Positions 2,395 through 18,402 of a stretch of DNA of 38,623 bases are shown here, in pieces. The notes beneath the pieces were generated by a model. That model ran no database searches, was not told the DNA's origin, and saw only the letters and a program-made list of their open reading frames with translations. Positions within the stretch are counted from its first letter, which is position 1, and each line of letters begins with the position of its first letter. The position numbers were made by a program, and so were the translations under genes. This DNA is from an uncultured Bacilli bacterium (GTDB taxonomy: Bacteria > Bacillota_I > Bacilli_A > RF39 > UBA660): assembly GCA_947589495.1 (NCBI GenBank), contig CANQAK010000006.1:1-38623 (forward strand). The letters are read 5' to 3'.

Positions 2395-2526
2395 TTAATA
2401 TTCATCAAATGATTGATAGCTAATCAATTCCATGAGAATTCCACTCCCTCGAGGATCACTCCAGGCTGCTCCCATTGCTTTAGTCTATGGCTGAACAGAA
2501 GTATCATTAACCTTATTATTTATCAT
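2395..2526 (-). pseudogene. Short reading frame with in-frame TAG: MINNKVNDTSVQP*TKAMGAAWSDPRGSGILMELISYQSFDEY
   Basis: Minus frame opens with ATG 2526-2524, TAG 2487-2485, then stays open to TAA 2397-2395; locally GC-rich against an AT-rich background. Confidence 0.4.
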
Positions 2527-2674
2527 CGCAATATTAGTTGCTAACTAATTTTATAACCAAGCATTTATCGTCAAGCGTGCTTGTTAACGTGCTCCTTAAT
2601 AATAAGAACGTATTTGATGAATAAATATAAAATTTTCAAAGATCTTTTCTGCGTTCTGTAAAAAAACAAAAAAC

Positions 2675-2705
2675 AGGTGGAAAGTATAAATTTACCTTTC
2701 CACCT
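2675..2705 (-). terminator. Intrinsic terminator downstream of the sigma-like gene
   Basis: AGGTGGAAAG...CTTTCCACCT hairpin followed by a T-rich run on the minus strand. Confidence 0.75.
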
Positions 2706-2735
2706 ATTTCCTCACTAAAATACGAAAAGTTTAGT

Positions 2736-3215
2736 CTAATTTTTAAATTTTTTTGAAATTTTTTCTATTGCTATATCAATTGAAAACTTAACAGCGCTTT
2801 TTGTGCAACCTTCTTCTTTAGCTATTTCATCTAAAGTTTTATCCTCAAAATAATATTTTTTTAGCCTTCTTCTTTGTATTTCAGGCAAGCTTTTTATAGC
2901 TTGTTTTAAATTGTTATTCCGGATTTTATTTTCTACTATTTCATCCGTTGTTTTACTTTGATAAAGCATTCTTTTATATAGTAATTCATCACTTTCCATA
3001 ATATTTAAATGTTCTATATGTCTATCATACTTATTTAATTGTGATATATCATCTAATTCAAAATCATTGAATGTTTTATATAAATCATAATTAATTTTAA
3101 TGCAAATTAATCTTTTTTTACTATCCATAAAAGATATTGCATATGTATTGTTGGCAGAGTCATATATTAAGGTATATGGGTTATCTTTACTTTTTCTCCT
3201 CTTGGGATAATTCAT
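2736..3215 (-). CDS. Sigma-70 region 4-like protein
   Basis: C-terminal LPEIQRRRLKKYYFEDKTLDEIAKEEGCTKSAVKFSIDIAIEKI (sigma r4 HTH). Confidence 0.8.
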   Translation of the reverse strand: MNYPKRRKSKDNPYTLIYDSANNTYAISFMDSKKRLICIKINYDLYKTFNDFELDDISQLNKYDRHIEHLNIMESDELLYKRMLYQSKTTDEIVENKIRNNNLKQAIKSLPEIQRRRLKKYYFEDKTLDEIAKEEGCTKSAVKFSIDIAIEKISKKFKN

Positions 3216-5082: not shown

Positions 5083-6111
5083 CTATTTCATAAAAAAATC
5101 ACTTAATTTATAACTAACATTATTTTTTAATACATTATTATACTTCGAATTAAAAATATTTCCAACATTTTCTTTTGGGCAAACAATACTTACTTTTCTC
5201 TTGCGTATAATATATTCAAATTCTTTTCTTGAAAGAGAAATAAAACAATTATTCTTGTGATTCCAAAGCCATATTTCATCTATTTTTTCCTTTGTATAAT
5301 ATATACCAAAACAATATTTATTAACTGCTATGCATTTAGATCTTCCACCAAATAAATAAATTTTTTCTTTTGAATTATTATTTTCATGAAATTCATTAAT
5401 GATTTTTTTATAAAATCTATATATATCAACACTACTATTTAATTTTGCTGCTCTATCAGCTATTTTATTATCATAAATAATTTTTTTTAAGTTTTCGTTT
5501 AAATTATTTCTAAATTTGTCTATTACTTTACTAATATATACATCAAAATATTCATTCCTATTTTTCTTTATATACCTTATTTTCTTCATAATTTCTGTAA
5601 GTTGTTTATTGGTTAAATTAATCAAACATTTCTTGTCATCTTTTCTTCCAAAATTAAACCACTTCTTATGAGTTTGAATATTATCAAGGTTTCTTTCCAA
5701 ATCTACACTTATGTAGTGTTTATCACTTATTTTATATACTGGTATAATATGTTCTCCATTAGTAAAATCAGAAAAGTTATCATATGATAAAATGCCACTA
5801 ATTGCACCCAAATAATATATATCAATATTAAATTTTTTAGCAATGTTTTTTAATAATCTTGCTGCCGAAATACATATTATTTGATTTCTATTTAATTCGC
5901 CAAAACGTTTTTTTCTATATTTTTCATAAAATCTTATTTTATATTTTTCGGTATTCCAGTGAAATTTTGAACTAAAACTTCTATTCATTCCGATAACAAA
6001 AATCATACATGCAATTTTCTCTAAATCTGTATAATTATTATCATTTATTTTTTGTTTAATTATTTTATATAATTTTTTTTCACTTTTAGCCATTTTTATT
6101 ATTTCATTCAC
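5083..6111 (-). CDS. Cargo operon protein; possible transglutaminase/papain-fold domain
   Basis: Spaced Cys (QIICISAARLLKNIA), His (GEHIIPVYKI), Asp (YISVDLERNLDNIQTHKKWFNFG) resemble a C-H-D triad. Confidence 0.45.
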   Translation of the reverse strand: MNEIIKMAKSEKKLYKIIKQKINDNNYTDLEKIACMIFVIGMNRSFSSKFHWNTEKYKIRFYEKYRKKRFGELNRNQIICISAARLLKNIAKKFNIDIYYLGAISGILSYDNFSDFTNGEHIIPVYKISDKHYISVDLERNLDNIQTHKKWFNFGRKDDKKCLINLTNKQLTEIMKKIRYIKKNRNEYFDVYISKVIDKFRNNLNENLKKIIYDNKIADRAAKLNSSVDIYRFYKKIINEFHENNNSKEKIYLFGGRSKCIAVNKYCFGIYYTKEKIDEIWLWNHKNNCFISLSRKEFEYIIRKRKVSIVCPKENVGNIFNSKYNNVLKNNVSYKLSDFFMK

Positions 6112-6118
6112 TTATAGA

Positions 6119-6748
6119 TTATTTATATTTATTAAAGATTCTTTTTGATAATCTTAGGTTTACTTCCTCAATCGAACCAGTAGCATCAAATTCAATATAT
6201 TCACCATTATTCAATTGTTCTTGAATAATTAAGTTTTGAAAATCCTGATATTTACTATAAATTGCAGTTTTTTCTAAATCCAAATCTGAAAACTTTCTTT
6301 GTTTAGTAATAGCTTTTCTACACTCAATAGTTTGTGCAATATTGAAAAATAAATCCTCATCTTCTATATTTTCTATTCTATACTTATATTTAATTTCAGA
6401 GATTAATTCTAATGCATCATCTTTCGATAATCCCTTATACATTAAAGTAGCAATCGTTCTTGCATCAAAATTTTTTATTCCTTTATCAACTATTATTATT
6501 GGTTTTTGAATATTACATATATATAAATTTCTTGCATCCAATATTTTGTAGATTTCATTAGCAAACTCTGATGGTGTACTATCTATAAACCACCATTTAA
6601 AGTCACCTACTAATGTTTTTGCTTCACCAAGAAATTCTTTAAAACCACTAACAGTACCTATTAATTTCGGATTATTTTTAGCCAATAAATTTAATTGCGT
6701 TGTTTTACCTGATCCATCTACACCATTAAAACTAACTATACGACTCAT
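6119..6748 (-). CDS. Thymidylate kinase-like P-loop kinase
   Basis: IVSFNGVDGSGKTTQLNLL Walker A; TMPK-like layout. Confidence 0.8.
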   Translation of the reverse strand: MSRIVSFNGVDGSGKTTQLNLLAKNNPKLIGTVSGFKEFLGEAKTLVGDFKWWFIDSTPSEFANEIYKILDARNLYICNIQKPIIIVDKGIKNFDARTIATLMYKGLSKDDALELISEIKYKYRIENIEDEDLFFNIAQTIECRKAITKQRKFSDLDLEKTAIYSKYQDFQNLIIQEQLNNGEYIEFDATGSIEEVNLRLSKRIFNKYK

Positions 6749-6769
6749 TTTTATTACCCCCTTAATAAT

Positions 6770-8431
6770 TTACAGCATCATTTTAGTTACATTATGCCCA
6801 AAATCAGACGAATTAACACTATTTATGTCTTTATTTAAATCATTTACACATTTTATGAATTCTCTTCTAATTATCTCTGGAACCATATTAATTTTACCAT
6901 TAATAATATCTTCTATTGGTATCATTTCAGCAGAATAAATACCTCTATCGGAATAACTAGAATCCGTAAATTCTGGGCCTGTACCGGTTCCTATTACGCC
7001 CGCACTTTTTTTAACTACATTAAAGTATTGCGTGCCATTCTCACATTCCAATGTCAATAAAGGTTCGGTAGAAACTAAATCAATATCAATACCAATTTCT
7101 TCTTTTAATTCTCTTTTGGTAGCTTCTACTAAAGTTTCGCCATCTTCAATCCCACCTCCTGGGACAACATAATATTCTTTTACTTCACCATCAATTTTTT
7201 TAATTCTATGCATTAAAAGAACACGACCATTTTCTATTAATAATCCACCAGCTCTATTTCTCATTACTCTTCTCCTATTCTCTATACTTTTTAAAGTATT
7301 ATATATTAAATTTTCTAAATTGTCCAAATTTTTATTATTCTCAATGATATAATCTGCAATTTTTTCAATTTCTGCTGCGCCTCGACTAATTTTAACTTTA
7401 TCTTTCTTTTCTACTTCCTCTTTAGATTGTTTTAGACTTCCAACATCTTTTATATTTCTATTTATTCTATTTTCTTTTGATGTTTTTAAAAATAAAATAT
7501 TAAAATTTTCAGGAATAATACTTTTCATTTTTTCTGTTAATTTAAAATCATGTAAGCTCTCAAAAGAAACCATATCCCAATAATACATTGTTTTTAAAAG
7601 ACTTAGTATTTCATTAATTACTAATATTGCAATAATTCTAACATTGTTTTTAAATAAATTTTGATCTTCAGAAATACCATAAGTTTTCTTTACAACATTA
7701 TTTATATAATTAAACTTAAAATTTGGAATATTATATTTTTCTAACAAAAATCTACCAGTACTACTTTTTCCAGACTCGCTTAATCCACCAATAGCAATAA
7801 TTTGTTTTAATCTATCTGGTTTTGAAATTTGCTTTTCTAAACCGTCTTCAATAAGTTTATCTATTTTGCAATTAATTTCATTGTCAGAAATTGTCAAATT
7901 AACATTTTGTAAATCTCCATTCAAAGCATCTGAATATAAATACTTTTTTAATAACAAACTATATTTTTCAAATAATTTTTCTTGAGATTTCTCGTTTTTA
8001 TCCTTATCAACTTTATCATAATTTATTAAATTTATATTAATCTCTAGTCTATTTGCACTTTCTGCAAAATATTTATCTTTAGCTTGTTTTATGTACCAGA
8101 TTGCTTCCTTTTCGGTTAACCCCTTTATGATTAAAAGAGATAAAATCATTGCATCAAAAAATTTAATACCTTTATTAATAACTTTTATAGGTTTCATTGA
8201 CCGCTTTAAGTCTTCCTCTCTTTGTTTTATACTTTCATATATAACATCACAAATTTCATTAGGTAAACTATCAATTATCCATTTTTCTTTATTATTTATT
8301 TTTTTTAATGGATAATAATTAAATATACTATCTATTTTTTCTGATAATGAAGGATTAGAAATACATATCATATTCATTTGTGTTTCTATGTCATCCTCAT
8401 TAAAACCATTAAAAGCTAATATTACTTCCAT
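6770..8431 (-). CDS. Three-part fusion: TMPK-like domain lacking Walker A + P-loop kinase + NUDIX hydrolase
   Basis: N-terminus aligns to the 209-aa TMPK; internal IIAIGGLSESGKSSTGRFLL Walker A; GGIEDGETLVEATKRELKEEIGI NUDIX box. Confidence 0.85.
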   Translation of the reverse strand: MEVILAFNGFNEDDIETQMNMICISNPSLSEKIDSIFNYYPLKKINNKEKWIIDSLPNEICDVIYESIKQREEDLKRSMKPIKVINKGIKFFDAMILSLLIIKGLTEKEAIWYIKQAKDKYFAESANRLEININLINYDKVDKDKNEKSQEKLFEKYSLLLKKYLYSDALNGDLQNVNLTISDNEINCKIDKLIEDGLEKQISKPDRLKQIIAIGGLSESGKSSTGRFLLEKYNIPNFKFNYINNVVKKTYGISEDQNLFKNNVRIIAILVINEILSLLKTMYYWDMVSFESLHDFKLTEKMKSIIPENFNILFLKTSKENRINRNIKDVGSLKQSKEEVEKKDKVKISRGAAEIEKIADYIIENNKNLDNLENLIYNTLKSIENRRRVMRNRAGGLLIENGRVLLMHRIKKIDGEVKEYYVVPGGGIEDGETLVEATKRELKEEIGIDIDLVSTEPLLTLECENGTQYFNVVKKSAGVIGTGTGPEFTDSSYSDRGIYSAEMIPIEDIINGKINMVPEIIRREFIKCVNDLNKDINSVNSSDFGHNVTKMML

Positions 8432-8465
8432 TATTACCTCCTTAATAATTTAAAATATTCATTTT

Positions 8466-8948
8466 TTAATCATTACCCTTAACTACTATATGAAATAATT
8501 TACTATCCTTTATAATTTTTTCCTTTATCACACTAGGTAATAAATTACTCTTTTGAAGATCGCTCATATTAATCCATTTAAAATGGTGTTGAACAATTAC
8601 CCCTTTATCATTTTCAATTCTATTATAATCAATCTTATTGTAATCACTATTATTTATTAAATTTACTTTATAGTAAAAGTCAATGCTATGAGTTTTTTGT
8701 TTCCTTAAATTTGTAAAAAAATTTTCAGTTATTCCCATAAATGAAGCAATTTCAAAATCAAGATTTATTTCTTCTTTTAATTCTCTAAGTATAGCCTCTT
8801 CAGAAGTTTCTCCAATTTCCACAGTACCTCCAGGTAAACAATAGGAATCTTCATCATATTTGTTAACTAAAATTCTATTATCAAATATAAATATACCTGA
8901 AACCCTAACTTTAAATTTTTCTTTTTCATTTATTATTTTTATATCCAT
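8466..8948 (-). CDS. NUDIX hydrolase
   Basis: GGTVEIGETSEEAILRELKEEINLD NUDIX box, with Asn at the usual late Gly. Confidence 0.88.
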   Translation of the reverse strand: MDIKIINEKEKFKVRVSGIFIFDNRILVNKYDEDSYCLPGGTVEIGETSEEAILRELKEEINLDFEIASFMGITENFFTNLRKQKTHSIDFYYKVNLINNSDYNKIDYNRIENDKGVIVQHHFKWINMSDLQKSNLLPSVIKEKIIKDSKLFHIVVKGND

Positions 8949-8997
8949 AATTTATCTCCTTGTTAAATGTAACGATATGTTCTAATACAAAACTATT

Positions 8998-9678
8998 TTA
9001 GTTTTCGACAATACTCATAAGAAATTTTTTTGCATATTCAATAATACTTTTATATTCAATATTATCATTTATATAATTACTAATAAATTTTTCATAATCA
9101 TAGTATTCTAATCCAAATACTTTAGAATATGTTTTAAAAACCTCATCATAATTTTTAGGAGTATATCCATTTAATATTAAAATAGCTTTCATTATTAAAT
9201 AAGTCATTTTATATATTGCTTTAACTTGTTCCTTATTTAAATTATCATACAAAAAATATCTTTTATATATATGCATTCTCCAATTTAAATACGGAATATG
9301 TGTATTTTTTATTTCTTCAAAACTTACATCCGGAATTAGTAGTTCACTTTTAGAATATTGTAACTCTATCTTTTTGTTCTTTAATAAATACAGATGATAA
9401 TAAGTTTTGGGATCTATTTTTTTATTAACAAATTCTTTTTCACTATAAATTGTTGTACCGATTTTTACTGGAAAACCCTTTGATATTTTTCTAATCTTAT
9501 TAACTATATCAAAATTATAATTTTTAACCACTAAAATTACATCTATATCACTCCAATTGACAATTACCTTTGAACTCGAACTACTTCCTATAACTAGAAT
9601 AAGTGATAAGTCCACACCTAACTCATTCTTCATTTTTTTTACATAATCATCAATAACATAAGAATATTCATTTTTCAT
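8998..9678 (-). CDS. Pol-beta-fold nucleotidyltransferase
   Basis: LILVIGSSSSSKVIVNWSDIDVILVV (GS...DxD). Confidence 0.8.
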   Translation of the reverse strand: MKNEYSYVIDDYVKKMKNELGVDLSLILVIGSSSSSKVIVNWSDIDVILVVKNYNFDIVNKIRKISKGFPVKIGTTIYSEKEFVNKKIDPKTYYHLYLLKNKKIELQYSKSELLIPDVSFEEIKNTHIPYLNWRMHIYKRYFLYDNLNKEQVKAIYKMTYLIMKAILILNGYTPKNYDEVFKTYSKVFGLEYYDYEKFISNYINDNIEYKSIIEYAKKFLMSIVEN

Positions 9679-9681
9679 CCT

Positions 9682-11337
9682 CTAAAATCTCCTATCATCA
9701 TTTTTTTTTATTATATAATCACCAATAATTAAATAATCTAAATCTGATTTACAAAACATAACCATTGCGTCTTTTGGTGTTTCAACAATAGGTTCACCAT
9801 TATCATTAAATGAAGTATTTAATAATACTGGTACATTCGTTAGCTTATAAAACTCCGATAATAATTTATAAAATTTACTATTTTGTTTTTCATTTACGGT
9901 CTGAACTCTACCTGTAAAATCTTTGTGTAAAGTTGCAGGTATTTTGTCTTTAGCAAATTCTGTACAAATAGGTACTTTTAACATATATGGAGAAATATCA
10001 TCTATATCAAAATATTCCTTTACCTTTTCCTCTAATATAGATGGTGCAAATGGTCTAAACGACTCTCTATGCTTTATTCTAGAGTTTAGTACATCTTTCA
10101 TCTCTTGTGGAAATGGTGCACATAATATACTTCTATTTCCTAAGGCTCTAGGGCCAATTTCACTAGCCCCTTGAAACCAACCAATTATCTTTCCATTACT
10201 TAATAATTTAGCAGTGTCCAACTCAATATTAGAACTTTTTCTAAATGTGATATCTTTACCTTTAACTTCATATGGTAAAATAAATTTTTCCTGTCTCTTT
10301 TCTAATACATCTAAAATTTCTTCCTCTTTATATTCTCTTGCTAAGTATGGGGATTTTAATTCTATTCTTTTTTCGTAATTAAAATAACTATGATATCCAT
10401 ATAGCGCATTACCTAGAGATTGACCGGTATCATCACAACATGGTGCGACAAAAAGATTTTCAATAGGTGTTTCTTTTAATATTCTTTGATTAACTATTCC
10501 ATTCAAAAATACTCCACCTGCAACACATAAGTTTTTTATTTTATACTTATCATATAATTCATTAACTAATTTAAGAATTATTTTTTCCACCTGTGATTGG
10601 ACATAATAAGCAGCGTCCTTGTTTTCATAACCAGATTCAGGTTTACCAAAATCCAGCTTATTCTCTTTAATGAAATTAAGTGCTCCATTAATATATTTAC
10701 CTTCACATTTACTTGAAATTTCTAAATTTTTATTTATATCAAATAAATCAACTTTTGGATATTTATCCTTTCCGTATGCTGATAATCCCATAGTTTTTCC
10801 AGCTTCTTGTGCACTCCAACCACAAAAATTTGTAAAAGTCTCGTAAGTTCTTCCAATACCCTTGTATTTAGATCTTTTTACATTATTACCACCGACTTTT
10901 TTTATAATATTCCCTTCACCAATATAATAACTTTCAGTATCATTTAAATTACCTAATCCATCAATTACTAATATTATGGATTTATCAAATGGCGATAGAA
11001 AATATGAACTATACGCATGTGACAAATGATGGTCAACAGTTATAAATTTTGAATTATTATTTACTATACTACTTAATTGTCCTTTAAAACTATTTTCTAA
11101 CCTATTTCCATAGCAACTAGAAACAAATAAATCAACATCATTTATATTAATTCCTAATTCATCTAAACAATAAATAAGCGAATATAGATAACCTTCTGAA
11201 TACTTTTTTCTATTTAATCTCTCTTCGGCTATTGAAATCAATTTATTGTCGTGAATTACTGTACAACCACCGTTATGTCCCGTATTAAATCCTACTATCG
11301 TTTTATTAATACTACTATCTAAGTTTATCATTAACAT
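9682..11337 (-). CDS. NodU/CmcH/TobZ-family O-carbamoyltransferase
   Basis: GFNTGHNGGCTVIHDNKLISIAEERLNRKKYSEG; DHHLSHAYSSYFLSPFD; VAGGVFLNGIVNQRI; FQGASEIGPRALGNRSILCAP; HRESFRPFAPSIL. Confidence 0.95.
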   Translation of the reverse strand: MLMINLDSSINKTIVGFNTGHNGGCTVIHDNKLISIAEERLNRKKYSEGYLYSLIYCLDELGININDVDLFVSSCYGNRLENSFKGQLSSIVNNNSKFITVDHHLSHAYSSYFLSPFDKSIILVIDGLGNLNDTESYYIGEGNIIKKVGGNNVKRSKYKGIGRTYETFTNFCGWSAQEAGKTMGLSAYGKDKYPKVDLFDINKNLEISSKCEGKYINGALNFIKENKLDFGKPESGYENKDAAYYVQSQVEKIILKLVNELYDKYKIKNLCVAGGVFLNGIVNQRILKETPIENLFVAPCCDDTGQSLGNALYGYHSYFNYEKRIELKSPYLAREYKEEEILDVLEKRQEKFILPYEVKGKDITFRKSSNIELDTAKLLSNGKIIGWFQGASEIGPRALGNRSILCAPFPQEMKDVLNSRIKHRESFRPFAPSILEEKVKEYFDIDDISPYMLKVPICTEFAKDKIPATLHKDFTGRVQTVNEKQNSKFYKLLSEFYKLTNVPVLLNTSFNDNGEPIVETPKDAMVMFCKSDLDYLIIGDYIIKKNDDRRF

Positions 11338-12352
11338 TTCTCCAATCTTTTATAAAAATAATAAAGTCCTTAAAATTTTTAAAATCTAAAGAATAAAATA
11401 ACGATAAATATTTTAAAGTTAATATAATATCAAACTTTTTCATATCTTTAAAATTGAATACTGCAAGGGCCTTCATCGCTAAATAATTCTTAAAATCTAA
11501 ATACCAATCTTCATATTCTATTTTTGATATAACTGGTGATATAACTTTTTCCATATAATATATAATTGCATCTAATCTAATTGGTCTAATATGAATTTTA
11601 AGTGTCTTTTTTTCAACAAAATTATATTTCTTCATTTTTTTATATATTATTTTATGTTCCCTAAAAGCTTTGAAATTATATTTAGGGGATAAATATTCAC
11701 ATTGCATTAAATTATACCAAAAAAATGTAGCAAATTCAGCCATAATTGGAACATATCCACCAGCAGTAAAATCAAATATTGTTCCATCGATGCATATATT
11801 TAAATCGTTCGGATCACATTGAGAAATTACACACCATTTACTTCTATCACTATTTTTATAATATTTTTTTACAGATTTATAAATATCGTCTATATTTGTA
11901 TCGTTTTTTAGCCTATCTGATAGTTTAATTAATATATTACTGTAATTATCTTTTAATCTTGTATTAATTCTATCTTCAAAAAATATCTTACTACTATTTT
12001 TCTTTGTATTTTTAATAGATATAATAAAAATATCCCTATATTTATTCATTATATTATAATAAAGTGAATCTAACTTATCTCTAGTAATAAAATAGTCTAA
12101 AAGTAAGCCTTTATTTTTGCCAACATTATTGTTATACTCGTATCCAATTATGTTTCTAACACGATTTGAAATTTCAAAAAATTTTATTGGTGTTCTGTAA
12201 TACTTACTTATTTTTTTATAACCTGTAATTTCACTTTCAAATAAACTATTATTCAATATTTTATAAAAAATCTTTTTATTATCTATCATAAATACTCCAT
12301 TAGTATTATTTTGATTATGATTACTATATATTTCCTTAACTATTTCTTTCAT
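11315..12352 (-). CDS. APH/choline-kinase-fold-like phosphotransferase (divergent)
   Basis: ISQCDPNDLNICIDGTIFDFTAGGYVPIMAEFATFFW resembles the APH catalytic loop and DFG-like segment. Confidence 0.55.
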   Translation of the reverse strand: MKEIVKEIYSNHNQNNTNGVFMIDNKKIFYKILNNSLFESEITGYKKISKYYRTPIKFFEISNRVRNIIGYEYNNNVGKNKGLLLDYFITRDKLDSLYYNIMNKYRDIFIISIKNTKKNSSKIFFEDRINTRLKDNYSNILIKLSDRLKNDTNIDDIYKSVKKYYKNSDRSKWCVISQCDPNDLNICIDGTIFDFTAGGYVPIMAEFATFFWYNLMQCEYLSPKYNFKAFREHKIIYKKMKKYNFVEKKTLKIHIRPIRLDAIIYYMEKVISPVISKIEYEDWYLDFKNYLAMKALAVFNFKDMKKFDIILTLKYLSLFYSLDFKNFKDFIIFIKDWRNVNDKLR

Positions 12353-12356
12353 AACA

Positions 12357-12956
12357 TTATACCTCTAATATTTTTTCATCACTTATTAATATTTTCATAG
12401 CATTTTTTACTACTTTTAAATCTTCTATTTTATCACCTATCAAAAGAATCGAAGTATTAGCATCATAATTAAGTTTTTCCTTTTTAGGAGTTATTATTTT
12501 AATAAAATCAGTATTATTTATTTTATTTGAAATTATTTTAATATTTTTAGAATCTATATTATTTATATTTAGAAACTTTTTTATTATTTCTTCTATACCA
12601 GAAGAATATATTACAACATCCATATTGCTTTTTACAGCATACTTTAATAATGAAATTATAACTTTATTAGGCTTAAACTCCTTTTTGAAATCAATAATAT
12701 TTAATATTTCTTGATTATAATATTTATGTAATAATTTAAGTTTTTTTCTCCAGACAAATTTATAAAAAGTGGAAGTCATAGCAATATTAGTTAAAAAATC
12801 TAAAAATTTTTTTCTATTATAATATGAACTAGGTAAATAATTACTAAATACTCCTATACTAGAATTTGAATCATGTGTTGTAAGAGTATAATCAAAATCA
12901 AATATAATTGTTGAAATTTTATTTAGATCTATTTTTTTAATGATTTTATTATACAT
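12357..12956 (-). CDS. HAD-superfamily phosphatase-like hydrolase
   Basis: TIIFDFDYTLTTHD, VIYSSGIEEIIKKFL, SILLIGDKIEDLKVVKNA. Confidence 0.85.
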   Translation of the reverse strand: MYNKIIKKIDLNKISTIIFDFDYTLTTHDSNSSIGVFSNYLPSSYYNRKKFLDFLTNIAMTSTFYKFVWRKKLKLLHKYYNQEILNIIDFKKEFKPNKVIISLLKYAVKSNMDVVIYSSGIEEIIKKFLNINNIDSKNIKIISNKINNTDFIKIITPKKEKLNYDANTSILLIGDKIEDLKVVKNAMKILISDEKILEV

Positions 12957-12958
12957 AA

Positions 12959-13723
12959 TTACTCACACACCTTATAAAATTTACTACTTATTATCCTAGC
13001 CAAACCATCAATTGATATTATCTGACAATCTTTATTTATAAAAAATAATCTTTTTTCTTTATCTAATATGTATATTTTATCTTTGTATTTTATCTTAACG
13101 TTTCCTTCTATTATAAAAATAAACTTATTATAATTTTTTTCAGTTATATTATTTAGTTCTAAATTATTATCAAGTTTTTTTATCTTTCCACGATATAATG
13201 GTAACAAATATTTATAATAATCTATCTCATCATTAACTTTTCTCCCGAGTTTATCATAGATTCTAATTGTTTCATTATTATCAAACAAATTATTATCCTG
13301 CTCCTCAAAAACCAATGAATCTTTTTTTAAAGAATGAATTGTGTTATTAGGTATATTTATGTAATCTAAGTAACATAGTTTTTGTACACATTTATCAGTT
13401 TCAACATAAGTGCTATCGGAGAGTGATAACCATCGTTCACTTTTTAATGGATGTATCTGTAATGATGTATCATTTAAATTATTATGTAACACTTTAAATA
13501 ACTTATCAGAAAATGGAGCAAAAACAATTTCTTCCCCCCAAGCCAATGTATTTTTAACATATGGAACTTCAAACCAACCATTATTATATAATTTTTGAAG
13601 TTTATCAAGAAAATCCAAAGTAACTTTATTGTTATCATTCAGCATTTTTTTTACATAAGAATTTTTATAAACAGATAAATCAAATTTTTCTATAAATTTA
13701 ATATTTAAAATATTATTAATCAT
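12959..13723 (-). CDS. Cupin / class I mannose-6-phosphate isomerase-like protein
   Basis: WGEEIVFAPFSDKLFKVLHNN, SLQIHPLKSERWLSLSDSTYVE, NIPNNTIHSLKKDSLVFEEQDNN...TIRIYDKLGR. Confidence 0.65.
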   Translation of the reverse strand: MINNILNIKFIEKFDLSVYKNSYVKKMLNDNNKVTLDFLDKLQKLYNNGWFEVPYVKNTLAWGEEIVFAPFSDKLFKVLHNNLNDTSLQIHPLKSERWLSLSDSTYVETDKCVQKLCYLDYINIPNNTIHSLKKDSLVFEEQDNNLFDNNETIRIYDKLGRKVNDEIDYYKYLLPLYRGKIKKLDNNLELNNITEKNYNKFIFIIEGNVKIKYKDKIYILDKEKRLFFINKDCQIISIDGLARIISSKFYKVCE

Positions 13724-14469
13724 ACTAAATTACGACCTCCATCAATAGTAAAAATACTTCCTGTTGTAGCCTTTGAAAAATTATTGATAATGTTATATAT
13801 GTACTCTGCAATTTCATCTGATTTATAAATTTTCTTTAAAGGAACTTTAGACTTTGCCAAAAATTCAGCTACTTTATTAATTTTAAATATTTCATTCATA
13901 CTTGTATATGTAGCTCCAATAGCAAGCGCATTAACCGTAATATTTCTTTTAGATAATTCTAAAGCAAATCCTTTTGTCATCATTGCAACTCCTGCTTTTG
14001 ATATATCATAATGTAATTTATCTCTGCGTGGCTTATTGTAATGAGTAGAAATAATATTTAAAATAGTTGAATTTGATTTCATTTTTTTTGCAACTATTTT
14101 ACTTATAATGAAAGTACCATTAATATTAACTTCTATTACATTTTTCCAATCTTCCAAATCTATTTTCAAAATATTTTTTGTTGTTTGAATTGCGGCATTA
14201 TTTATCAATACATCAATATTTCCATATTTCTTAAATATCTCATTAATGATAAGTTCCATTTGTTCATAACATGTGATATCACAATTATATATAACTAAAT
14301 TTTCTCTTTCTTGAAATTTTTTACAGGCAGCCATATCCTTGTCTATTATAATCACAGTATTTTCAGAGCTTTCATTCAAAAATTTATTTACTGTGGCTCT
14401 TCCTATTCCTCTTGCACCACCGGTTATTAAAACAACTTTCTTTTTTAATAACGATTTTTTATTAACCAT
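13720..14469 (-). CDS. Short-chain dehydrogenase/reductase (SDR); first gene of the cargo operon
   Basis: VVLITGGARGIGRATVNKF, NNAA, ISTHYNKPRRDKLHYDISKAGVAMMTKG, GSIFTIDGGRNL. Confidence 0.95.
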   Translation of the reverse strand: MVNKKSLLKKKVVLITGGARGIGRATVNKFLNESSENTVIIIDKDMAACKKFQERENLVIYNCDITCYEQMELIINEIFKKYGNIDVLINNAAIQTTKNILKIDLEDWKNVIEVNINGTFIISKIVAKKMKSNSTILNIISTHYNKPRRDKLHYDISKAGVAMMTKGFALELSKRNITVNALAIGATYTSMNEIFKINKVAEFLAKSKVPLKKIYKSDEIAEYIYNIINNFSKATTGSIFTIDGGRNLV

Positions 14470-14511
14470 ACTATCCCCCTCATATAATTAAATCTTTTAT
14501 ATTTCCCAACT

Positions 14512-14547
14512 AAAAAGGTGGCAAAGACACTAAAAGTGCTTGCCACC
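14512..14547 (-). terminator. Intrinsic terminator in the 5' leader of the cargo operon (attenuator)
   Basis: Minus strand GGTGGCAAGCACTTTTAGTGTCTTTGCCACC followed by TTTTT. Confidence 0.8.
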
Positions 14548-14564
14548 ATAAAAATACTACCACC

Positions 14565-14590
14565 ATTTGGGCAAACACTAGCACCCAAAT
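14565..14590 (-). promoter_or_regulatory. Leader hairpin 1:2, competing with a 2:3 antiterminator
   Basis: ATTTGGG...CCCAAAT; the 14579-14570 segment (AGTGTTTGCC) can instead pair with GGCAAGCACT (14544-14535). Confidence 0.6.
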
Positions 14591-14607
14591 TGATTTAATT
14601 TGCGAAT

Positions 14608-14636
14608 ACTTTACTATAATTAATAATTTTTGTCAA
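14608..14636 (-). promoter_or_regulatory. Sigma-A-type promoter for the cargo operon
   Basis: Minus strand TTGACA, 17 bp, TAAAGT. Confidence 0.7.
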
Positions 14637-14699: not shown

Positions 14700-16523
14700 T
14701 TATAAATGTTTATTTATTTTTTCTTTTATTTCTTCTTCTATGTTTTCTTTTTGAATCGTATCCTTAAAACCATCATCAATATAATATCTTTTAAAATGTT
14801 CTTTATCTTTTTTTAGCATAACAATTACAGGAGTTTTAAATTTTTTATTTTTATTCAATTCGTTTAATGTCTGTAAAGCAGAAATTCCATTTAATTCATC
14901 ATCTATTATTATTAAGTTATAAAACTCACCATTATTAACTCTATCAATACAATCTTTACCTGTCATTGTTATATTTAAATCAATGTTATATTCTCCTAAG
15001 ATATTTGATATCTTAAAATTTTCGTCTTTATCATTATTAACTAATAAAACTCTTTTTCTACCAAATATATCAGAAGAGTATTTTTCTACGTTTTTCATAA
15101 AATCTGATGATTGTTCAATGTCACATTTTTGATCTAATACTATCATAAATGTTGTGCCTTCATCTTTTTTACTCTTAATATTAATACTTCCACCAAGTAA
15201 CTTTATTACTTTAATGGTTGCTTTTAAGTCCATATCTAGTTTATTAAGTTTACTTATCTCATCTAAAGTTAATTCCATATTATCATCTAATATACTATTT
15301 ATTTTATAAAGACTCATTCCAACTCCCGAATCTTCTATTTTTATAACTAATCTTGCAACATCATATTTTACTATACTACCTATGTTTACGTTTATAAAAC
15401 CATTCTCGGTATTTTCAACACTATTTAATAATACTGACATTAAAATTTGTTTGAATTTTACATCATCACCATTAAGTCTTTGTGGAACATTACTATTTAT
15501 TTCAAATTTTAATTTTATATTCTTATTTCCAATTGCATTTTGCGTCATACTTTCAATGGTTTTAAAAAACATAGTCGTATCATAATATTCTTCTTTTATT
15601 TTGATTTTATTTGCATCCATAGATGATATATCTAGTACGTTATTTAATTTAAATAGTAAATCATTAGCATTACTTGAAATTAATCTTACCGCATCTTTTT
15701 TATCAATATCGTTATCTAATTTATCAAAGTTTTTAGTAATCCCTAATATATTTTTTGTCGGTGTTTTAATATCTTGTGATATTTCAAATAAAAATCTTGA
15801 CTTATCTTCCATTTGTCTTTCTACTAGCTCTTTGTTTCTCAATAATTCATTTACTACCTTTAAATCTGGATTTTCTATTGTAAAATACATTAAAAATACA
15901 ATAAAAGTCTCGATCGCAGTAGTTAAAAGCAATCCGGGATAAACACTTTGCACATAGCCACCAACACCTGCTAATAATATAAATAATATAATTGGAGTGT
16001 ATTTTTTTGTTTTTATATGTTTATAATTTTTTACTAAAGCTACTATCCATACAACCATTGATATGATAAACACAAATCTTAAAAAATCAACAGATTTGCC
16101 ATAGGAATACATAGAAACACCATCATCAAAAAATTTTATTGGCAATTTACATATAATAACTGAAGTAATTATAAATAATACTAAACAAATTTTTTTAACT
16201 TTTTTTAAATAAGAATCTATTTTTTTTATTGTAAGATTATTTTTAGATATTAAAAACACATAGTAAGAATACATAAATATAAATCCAAGATAGTAAATAA
16301 GTAACCCTTTCGTAAGAATATAATGACGTAAAGGAATCTTAGCATCAATCATGGTAGCAGAAAACATACAAGAAATTTCAATAATTAAACCTATAAAGTT
16401 TGCAAAAAGTAATTTCTCATATATCTGATTTTCTTTTGTTTTTAAACGTTTTTTAGAAAAATATACTATTATTAATAATATAATATAAATTAAACTGGTA
16501 GCCTGTAACCATATTATATTCAT
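14700..16523 (-). CDS. Multi-TM hybrid sensor histidine kinase-like protein with degenerate H-box and receiver
   Basis: Multiple N-terminal TM segments; FLFEISQDIKTPTKNILG (H replaced by Q); HATPase motifs (LNSVENT, IEDSGVGMS, EGTTFMIVL); C-terminal receiver-like domain. Confidence 0.88.
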   Translation of the reverse strand: MNIIWLQATSLIYIILLIIVYFSKKRLKTKENQIYEKLLFANFIGLIIEISCMFSATMIDAKIPLRHYILTKGLLIYYLGFIFMYSYYVFLISKNNLTIKKIDSYLKKVKKICLVLFIITSVIICKLPIKFFDDGVSMYSYGKSVDFLRFVFIISMVVWIVALVKNYKHIKTKKYTPIILFILLAGVGGYVQSVYPGLLLTTAIETFIVFLMYFTIENPDLKVVNELLRNKELVERQMEDKSRFLFEISQDIKTPTKNILGITKNFDKLDNDIDKKDAVRLISSNANDLLFKLNNVLDISSMDANKIKIKEEYYDTTMFFKTIESMTQNAIGNKNIKLKFEINSNVPQRLNGDDVKFKQILMSVLLNSVENTENGFINVNIGSIVKYDVARLVIKIEDSGVGMSLYKINSILDDNMELTLDEISKLNKLDMDLKATIKVIKLLGGSINIKSKKDEGTTFMIVLDQKCDIEQSSDFMKNVEKYSSDIFGRKRVLLVNNDKDENFKISNILGEYNIDLNITMTGKDCIDRVNNGEFYNLIIIDDELNGISALQTLNELNKNKKFKTPVIVMLKKDKEHFKRYYIDDGFKDTIQKENIEEEIKEKINKHL

Positions 16524-16596
16524 ACTAACTCTCCTTTACAACACATTATATTTATACAATTATTCTTAAAATAGATGATCATGTATTAGTCTTTTT

Positions 16597-18402
16597 TTAT
16601 TTTTTAAATATATGTTTTGAATTTGATTTATCTGTTTTTTTGATAGTTTCAAATTCATCATCAATATACATTTGTTCTAACTTTTTAATATCAGGTTTTT
16701 TTGTTGAAGTAAGCGGTAAGCTATCAACAAATTTTATTTCTTTAGGAACCATGTATTCAGGAACTACTGTATTTAAATATTTCTTAATTTCATCTTGAGT
16801 TTTTGTTGTATTAGCAACTCCAGATTTTAATTTAATAATACCTATTGGTTTATTAATTATCTGATTATCTGGAATAGTAATAAGTTCTCCTTCTTCAATA
16901 ATATCCATGTTTTCCATTGCAATTTTAACTCTTGCAGGACTAATTTTAGTAGGATTATTCTGAGAGTCTTTTGTAAGTACTAATCTTTTTACTCTATCAT
17001 CGAAAAACATTTCACCCTTATCGTTAAGCCAAATATAATCACCAGTATTATACCATGTTGCACCATTTTCATCTTTTACTAAAGCTTCTTTAGTTGATTT
17101 TTCATCATTATAATACTCTTTCATTAAAGTAGGACTATAAATATATGCTATGCCCGATTGATTAGGTCCAACTTCTTTTTTTGTTTCTGGATCAACTATT
17201 TTAATAAAATTACCTATACAAGGCTTACCAACTGATCCTAAGCTCGGGTTTTCATAATAGCAATAAGCTAATGAACCTAACCCTTCGTTTGCACCATAAC
17301 CTTGAACTAACTGCGTATTACCACCATTTTTTCTAATGAATTCATCAGCGGCAAATTTAACTTCATTTTTTAAAGGTTCAGCACCAGTTAATACTATTTT
17401 CCATTTAGAACAATCAGTTTTTCTTTTTGCTTTTTCAATTGAATCCTTTATATAAGGAGGTGATGTCAACCAATGATTAAATTTATATTGTTCATTTCTT
17501 TTAACCATATCTTTAGGATCAAACAATGGATCTAAACCTAAAGCAACACCAAGACATAAAGGTTCATGAACCATATTAAGAAGTGAGTAAAAAATCCATA
17601 AAGGCGTCATATTAAACATTACATCGCCCTTTTCAAATCGATCTTGTTCAGTCATACCCATAATTTGAACCATTGAATCCATAGCATCCCATGTTGCAAC
17701 ACATGCCTTTGCATGACCTGTCGTGCCTGATGTATATGCAACAGCAGCAATATGGTTCTTTTCATAACTACAAGCTGGTAATTCAAAATTACTCTTTCTT
17801 CCTAATTCTAATAATTGTTCATAATTTAAGATATTAACATTATCATATTTTTTCTTATCTAATCCTTTTAATTTCTCTATAAATTTATATTTCGCCTTAT
17901 CAACGTTCATTCCCTTAGGAAGTCCATCTGTAAGCGATGTTGTAACTATCTTCGTTATATTTTGCTCTTTTAAAGCTTGCATAGTATCTTCACTACAAAA
18001 GATATCATTGCCAACAAATATATTTGATTTAAAATTAGAAAGTTCTCTTACAAGTTCATCTTTATTAGCAGCACAGTTTACCATATGCATTGTAGCTCCA
18101 ATTTTATCTAAAGCATACAATGATACAATTCCATATGGAACTGATAACATACTCATTACAACAACATCATTTTTTTTAACACCTAAACAACTAAATCCTT
18201 TGGCAGCATTATCTATTAAGGTCATTAACTGTCTATAAGTAATTTTATTTCCTAAATAATTAATTGCAATTAAATCTGGATTTTCTAATGCAGTTTCTTC
18301 AATTCTTTTGTAAAGTGTATCATGTTTTAAAATTTTTTCTATTTCTCCTGCCTTTGTTATTTTTGATACTTCTTCTTTTAATTTTTTAAAATCTACGTTC
18401 AT
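16597..18402 (-). CDS. Class I adenylate-forming enzyme (acyl/aryl-CoA synthetase-like)
   Basis: AVAYTSGTTGHAKACVATW, VQGYGANEGLG, TWYNTGDYIWLNDKGEMFFDDRVKR, LPLTSTKKPDIKKLE. Confidence 0.92.
   Translation of the reverse strand: MNVDFKKLKEEVSKITKAGEIEKILKHDTLYKRIEETALENPDLIAINYLGNKITYRQLMTLIDNAAKGFSCLGVKKNDVVVMSMLSVPYGIVSLYALDKIGATMHMVNCAANKDELVRELSNFKSNIFVGNDIFCSEDTMQALKEQNITKIVTTSLTDGLPKGMNVDKAKYKFIEKLKGLDKKKYDNVNILNYEQLLELGRKSNFELPACSYEKNHIAAVAYTSGTTGHAKACVATWDAMDSMVQIMGMTEQDRFEKGDVMFNMTPLWIFYSLLNMVHEPLCLGVALGLDPLFDPKDMVKRNEQYKFNHWLTSPPYIKDSIEKAKRKTDCSKWKIVLTGAEPLKNEVKFAADEFIRKNGGNTQLVQGYGANEGLGSLAYCYYENPSLGSVGKPCIGNFIKIVDPETKKEVGPNQSGIAYIYSPTLMKEYYNDEKSTKEALVKDENGATWYNTGDYIWLNDKGEMFFDDRVKRLVLTKDSQNNPTKISPARVKIAMENMDIIEEGELITIPDNQIINKPIGIIKLKSGVANTTKTQDEIKKYLNTVVPEYMVPKEIKFVDSLPLTSTKKPDIKKLEQMYIDDEFETIKKTDKSNSKHIFKK

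Follow-up and report, generated by a model that had tools for sequence, protein, structure and literature searches.

Competing terminator and antiterminator helices mark a probable transcription attenuator before unrelated operons in one Bacilli family

In a 38,623-nucleotide stretch of DNA from an uncultured Bacilli bacterium (hereafter the window; one contig of a 1.1-Mb draft genome), we find on the minus strand an 89-nt leader that probably acts in cis as a transcription attenuator with proposed stop and readthrough folds, and belongs to an undescribed RNA family heading unrelated cargo operons. In total, we found 18 leaders, 17 of them beyond the window, in 17 genomes and 11 genera of a single Bacilli family. 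We found no description of this leader RNA in the literature, and the best reading of the leader family is that it comprises previously undescribed transcription attenuators. How uncultured gut Bacilli regulate their natural-product and peptide operons has been little explored, and finding one short RNA before many unrelated ones points to an on/off logic common to them. The features of the locus, all on the minus strand, are as follows.

14700-16523, minus strand: hybrid histidine kinase (PF02518, PF00072), immediately upstream of the leader.
14608-14636, minus strand: putative promoter TTGACA-17-TAAAGT, supported by sequence and by conservation in most homologues; read from the sequence, -35 box TTGACA at 14636-14631, 17-nt spacer, -10 box TAAAGT at 14613-14608.
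14512-14600, minus strand: candidate attenuator leader RNA, the conserved block from its 5' end to the T-run, supported by 17 further leaders and covariance models R1-R3.
14584-14590, minus strand: segment 1, ATTTGGG, the 5' strand of hairpin 1:2 (S1), pairing with 14565-14571.
14565-14579, minus strand: segment 2, AGTGTTTGCCCAAAT, supported by 2:3 covariation; it consists of a loop part, AGTGTTTG (S2 5' strand), and CCCAAAT (S1 3' strand).
14543-14564, minus strand: linker GGTGGYAGTATTTTYATGGTGG between segments 2 and 3, its last five bases also in segment 3; loop 3 of a possible pseudoknot.
14535-14547, minus strand: segment 3, GGTGGCAAGCACT, terminator 5' arm and antiterminator partner of segment 2.
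14531-14517 and 14516-14512, minus strand: segment 4, AGTGTCTTTGCCACC, and TTTTT, the 3' arm of the G+C-rich hairpin and the T-run of the predicted intrinsic terminator.
13720-14469, minus strand: first cargo gene, an SDR oxidoreductase (PF13561/PF00106).
5083-13723, minus strand: rest of the cargo operon (Pfam and NCBIfam).

When the sequence was re-read, promoter, four segments and T-run lay exactly where a first-pass annotation of this DNA had placed them, and its 2:3 helix of 10 pairs with one G-U was exact (A22-U66 to C31-G57, numbered from 14600). As folding and alignment indicate, segment 3 can pair with either segment 2 or segment 4, and helices 2:3 and 3:4 are mutually exclusive. The annotation had held that 2:3 excludes both other helices; this is correct for 3:4, whereas 1:2 shares just two of the ten 2:3 pairs, the last ones (C30, C31), and could coexist with 2:3, the other eight pairs of which use the 1:2 loop.

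Promoter use, termination and readthrough, as we infer them, would run as follows. RNA polymerase would start near 14601 and make the short leader. If segment 3 paired with segment 4, an intrinsic terminator would form and transcription would stop at 14516-14512; if segment 2 held segment 3 in the antiterminator 2:3, the cargo operon (14469-5083), whose SDR start codon at 14469 lies downstream of the T-run, would be transcribed.

An explicit scan of both strands for 1:2, 2:3 and 3:4 followed by T5, with thresholds set so that the known site passes, found a single site in 38.6 kb; none was found in 400 dinucleotide shuffles, even without requiring 1:2, and a version of the scan with a tighter G-U limit misses the site. 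The first-pass annotation had proposed RNA folding and covariation over homologous leaders as checks on its attenuator. On folding, the leader RNA is more stable than its shuffles (-29.4 kcal/mol, against an average of -18.7 for the shuffles; z = -3.5, matched by 1 of 200 shuffles). With pseudoknots excluded from the calculation, the optimum fold of the window leader combines 1:2 and 3:4 (-29.4 kcal/mol), and the best fold with 2:3 forced reaches -19.6 kcal/mol; at equilibrium, termination is thus favoured by ~10 kcal/mol, and the default of this leader is therefore probably low expression. During simulated chain growth, 1:2 formed first, 2:3 was the optimum between roughly nt 66 and nt 78, and the terminator took over from about nt 81. 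The optimum of the whole leader is the 2:3 fold in four homologues (G216, G082, G258 and G288). The promoter hexamers alone do not match above chance (117 sites found versus 128 expected); however, a TTGACA-17-TAnnnT-like promoter lies at equal distance upstream in most homologous leaders, and this conservation supports the promoter.

The further leaders were found by DNA, covariance-model and cargo-protein searches of draft assemblies, those whose records we viewed being metagenome bins. BLAST with the leader detected two leaders, 82% identical, before different operons in a second genus of the family; among the many A+T-rich chance matches of the leader DNA search, the real ones were two full leaders and a remnant in genome G196. 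A covariance model added six leaders in that neighbouring genus, which has a member named Candidatus Aphodocola, and 7 of 18 genomes carry the leader there. The window's genus has it in 1 of 38 genomes, the window's own; a spurious match in G479 (L045) has neither T-run nor promoter and was ruled out as a leader. Over a 388-genome family sample, model R1 found the window's own leader only, suggesting that the leader is rare or fast-diverging. A search of 385 genomes with model R2, built solely from the nine close leaders, turned up the leader of G216. Starting from the radical-SAM protein encoded behind the leader of G471, we reached another seven leaders, these in other genera (G082, G258, G390, G288, G198, G363 and G278). 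These were first recognised by eye and later picked out by the models: R2 picks out those of G288, G278, G258, G198 and G082 in the loci fetched by the radical-SAM gene, and R3 picks out those of G390 and G363, absent from its build, at E 0.05-0.06. Over 182 class-wide genomes, the sole match of R3 besides the window was in G021, at a borderline E = 0.0099, directly before an SDR-cupin operon like that of the window. A pattern scan of the genome collection returned seven loci already known and three chance matches. Pattern scans and a protein scan of viral contigs gave chance matches or nothing, and plasmids and phages held no match to the promoter and leader or to the first cargo genes. Likewise, the radical-SAM protein had no match in plasmids, and the phage relatives of the carbamoyltransferase are only distant (<36% identity).

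Two sequences related to these searches were observed in addition. In the G196 remnant (contig C10, ~39,380-39,480; L083), located behind the histidine kinase, segments 2 and 4 have become fused and there is no longer a -35 box; the intact leader lies 34 kb from it on the same contig. In the window, a strong stand-alone hairpin, GGTGGAAAG/CTTTCCACC, at 2671-2758 (minus strand) is a weak match of R3 and probably a terminator.

Covariation was counted in 12 sequences aligned by R2, which held 1:2 and 3:4 and not 2:3. The 3:4 helix is paired in 93.8% of cells and has 7 pairs with two-sided change, and S1 and S2 (1:2 with the loop helix) together have 6 such pairs, numbers reached in 0 of 500 shuffles in either case; these counts are inflated by relatedness, several of the 12 sequences being close relatives, and those of S1 and 3:4 are not independent of the alignment, of whose model both were part. 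S1 is paired in 92% of cells (alignment A7). The full 2:3 helix alone is paired in 96% of cells with two two-sided changes (8 of 500 shuffles), a weaker result than for 3:4. We also used a swap test, which does not draw on the 12-sequence alignment and compares duplex energies of own and swapped partners. For 2:3, 177 of 50,000 permutations were as good as the own partners with rule-based segments and 0 of 50,000 with the core; for 3:4, 0 of 50,000 were as good. The control, in which segments 1 and 2 were tested with segment 4, gave no signal. For 1:2 alone the test gave no significant signal, mainly because UGGG/CCCA hardly varies; the clearest compensated case is G258 (UAAG/CUUA). Helix 1:2 is usually present with weaker covariation; G468, G363 and G021 have only a weak one or none. 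Taken together, these comparisons show covariation in homologous leaders for both the 2:3 antiterminator and the 3:4 terminator; this is what the first-pass annotation had called for, and it agrees with the anatomy proposed there, a terminator with a competing antiterminator. Sequence comparison shows the two alternative helices, that they are conserved and covary, and that the cargo changes, as described below.

Within the attenuator mechanism, the part played by 1:2 can be read in two ways. Given that 1:2 and 2:3 overlap by two pairs only, they could coexist as an H-type pseudoknot, in which the 1:2 loop would pair with segment 3 and delay or block the terminator; 1:2 could then help antitermination. 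Most leaders leave one base or more for loop 1, and S2 directly adjoins the S1 3' strand. S1 and the loop-to-segment-3 pairs are kept in 94.9% of cells (A7), and the geometry fits most leaders, but not G363 and G021. Alternatively, 1:2 could be a classical anti-antiterminator: a regulator would bind and stabilise 1:2, thereby block 2:3 and let the terminator form, as in the Bacillus subtilis rplJL leader, a proven example of this arrangement (PMC4538822). Helix 2:3 usually extends at least two pairs into the 1:2 3' strand, G082 has a segment 3 GGC that is paired in 2:3 and unneeded by the terminator, and G363 loses the pseudoknot register and keeps the 2:3 duplex, all of which favour the anti-antiterminator; by contrast, most leaders have an overlap of just two pairs, the part of segment 2 that pairs is the 1:2 loop and abuts the 1:2 3' strand without a gap, as in a pseudoknot, and 1:2 alone gives no swap signal. 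We therefore regard the anti-antiterminator as plausible but somewhat doubtful, and favour the H-type pseudoknot with about even confidence. The two predict opposite effects of breaking segment 1, so that the mechanism is directly testable. More tentatively, the leaders may form a new small pseudoknotted RNA family that serves as a regulatory module common to exchangeable operons for specialised metabolites and peptides in uncultured Bacilli, some of which lie on mobile elements; if so, any cargo placed behind the leader would come under the same host signal.

Other explanations dispense with a regulated RNA switch or with RNA altogether. An unregulated attenuator would set a constant readthrough fraction and keep costly cargo low. 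It would account for one leader serving unrelated cargo, for the lack of a ligand-binding core conserved family-wide outside the helices (the linker is replaced in G471 and the divergent leaders) and for our finding no candidate factor; however, a plain weak terminator would suffice for this, and a matched antiterminator is kept over 11 genera, making this explanation unlikely. A DNA operator or recombination site, in which a repressor would bind the GGTGGCA copies or cargo would be exchanged through them, seems to us very unlikely. The motif (GGTGGTA in the window) does occur twice in direct and once in inverted orientation in the close group, cargo changes behind a block that is constant from the -35 box to the T-run, and the G196 remnant resembles a deletion between segments 2 and 4. 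Against this, compensating changes in G082, G288, G468 and G258 keep the pairing rather than the sequence, the divergent leaders have no direct repeat, and the block ends at the T-run. Least credible of all is ribosome-mediated attenuation through a leader peptide starting at GTG or ATG (VFAQMVAVFSWWQ...) and carrying, in the close group, two Trp codons in tandem. There, the frame with its two adjacent UGG codons crosses segment 3; however, the close group has no Shine-Dalgarno-like site, G468, G390 and G198 have lost the start codon, the G468 frame stops ahead of the UGG pair, and divergent leaders do not conserve the peptide. With no leader ORF or ribosome-binding site conserved across leaders, we rejected leader-peptide attenuation.

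The cargo varies among the leaders, which argues that the leader is not specific for one product. Besides the SDR oxidoreductase, the window operon encodes cupin-like, HAD phosphatase, kinase-like, NodU-type carbamoyltransferase, nucleotidyltransferase-like, Nudix, Nudix/kinase, thymidylate-kinase-like and unknown proteins, of which the kinase-like (345 aa) and nucleotidyltransferase-like (226 aa) ones were assigned by eye with no family matched. G470 has the SDR/cupin/HAD/carbamoyltransferase operon in common with the window. Behind other leaders are HAD-HMGL, cytidylyltransferase and Nudix proteins (G189); a radical SAM-SPASM protein with a glycosyltransferase and a QueC-like protein (G196) or with a PEP-utilising enzyme (G468); FolE2 and a GTP cyclohydrolase II-like protein (G464); and, in G473, a guanylate-kinase-like first gene (copy a) and Rel-like, C39-like, YcaO and radical-SAM proteins (copy b). 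G471 and eight others have an HxsB-like radical-SAM maturase with a small peptide that contains GYDGCGTHTH. The same cargo has no leader at the radical-SAM loci of G342 and G522, so the leader is dispensable for it.

The HxsB-like radical-SAM/SPASM operon with its short GYDGCGTHTH precursor (L051, L109-L120) is itself conserved in several genera of the family, and the precursor peptide had no NCBIfam match. The precursor gene is preceded by ACACAACATAGG, with a small hairpin, and followed by CCTATGTTGTGT (L110, L111, L113-L116 and L119); this inverted repeat enclosing the peptide ORF is perhaps an mRNA-processing or stability element.

Because many cargo operons of unrelated kinds lie behind the leader, what it senses is probably a general state of the cell or a factor encoded by the host, not the product of one pathway. 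Of the ligand, protein or translation signal envisaged in the first-pass annotation, a translation signal is unlikely because no leader ORF or ribosome-binding site is conserved. Rfam covariance models (L10, PyrR, preQ1, SAM and others) gave no match, only unrelated sub-threshold ones in the leader region. That the leader is not a T-box, as previously noted, agrees with its 89 nt and with the absence of a T-box match in the window at gathering score and in the leader up to E = 5. LoaP, sought as a second NusG, was not found: exactly one PF02357 match is present in 16 of 16 genomes (drafts, 87-95% complete), on which basis we rejected LoaP-dependent antitermination. An ANTAR-domain protein was matched in 0 of 8 genomes, and in none of the control genomes either. 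In the eight close leaders sharing it, the linker GGTGGYAGTATTTTYATGGTGG hardly varies and could bind something; being replaced in G471 and the divergent leaders, it is lineage-specific, and its absence elsewhere argues against a family-wide aptamer.

The window holds a conjugative element with a relaxase, a coupling protein and a TraG/VirB4-like ATPase, and a large serine recombinase at the other end; between the conjugation genes and the recombinase lie an AMP-ligase, the hybrid histidine kinase, the leader and the cargo operon. Orthologues of the kinase in the neighbouring genus have 46-94% identity. Moreover, at window 14700-18402 and L078-L086, the leader-adjacent kinase is 93% identical to genes of a genus (G054, G255) other than the one in which the window genome is filed; either the element was transferred horizontally or the contig is misplaced. 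In G255 (L079) and G465 (L084), the same kinase has no leader behind it and is followed directly by genes like the tail genes of other cargo operons, which makes the site look like one where cargo is frequently gained and lost. Near the serine recombinase, at 2430-2510 (minus strand), the window also has an Rfam pemK RNA (RF02913, 58.9 bits).

The leader provides a sequence handle for finding such operons and, if its signal is found, silent clusters behind it could be switched on in a laboratory host. Among known systems, H-type pseudoknot riboswitches of the preQ1-I type pair the loop of a 5' hairpin with the terminator 5' arm. Here too, the 1:2 loop can pair with the terminator 5' arm as a candidate pseudoknot; by contrast, our leader has no Rfam match and no unpaired core conserved family-wide. 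The tet(M) leader of Tn916-type elements uses a leader peptide; it attenuates cargo on a conjugative element, as our leader probably does, whereas its RNA and cargo are unrelated. LoaP targets the leaders of specialised-metabolite operons, a likeness to the termination control predicted here for such leaders in Bacillota. The antitermination that it exerts in Bacillus velezensis (PMC12691694) is the work of a NusG paralogue; by contrast, a matching RNA strand would oppose the terminator here, and 16 of 16 genomes have exactly one NusG match. In the B. subtilis vmlR leader, which is driven by ribosome stalling on a leader ORF, an anti-antiterminator, an antiterminator and a terminator compete (PMC9226507), as they may in ours; no leader ORF is conserved in the leader described here. 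The B. subtilis rplJL (L10) leader combines an anti-antiterminator, an antiterminator and an intrinsic terminator in one leader (PMC4538822). Our leader differs in having no L10-leader Rfam match, a different and changing cargo, and a segment 2 whose pairing part lies in the 1:2 loop; it resembles rplJL in having three candidate structures of this kind, of which the one that forms would set termination.
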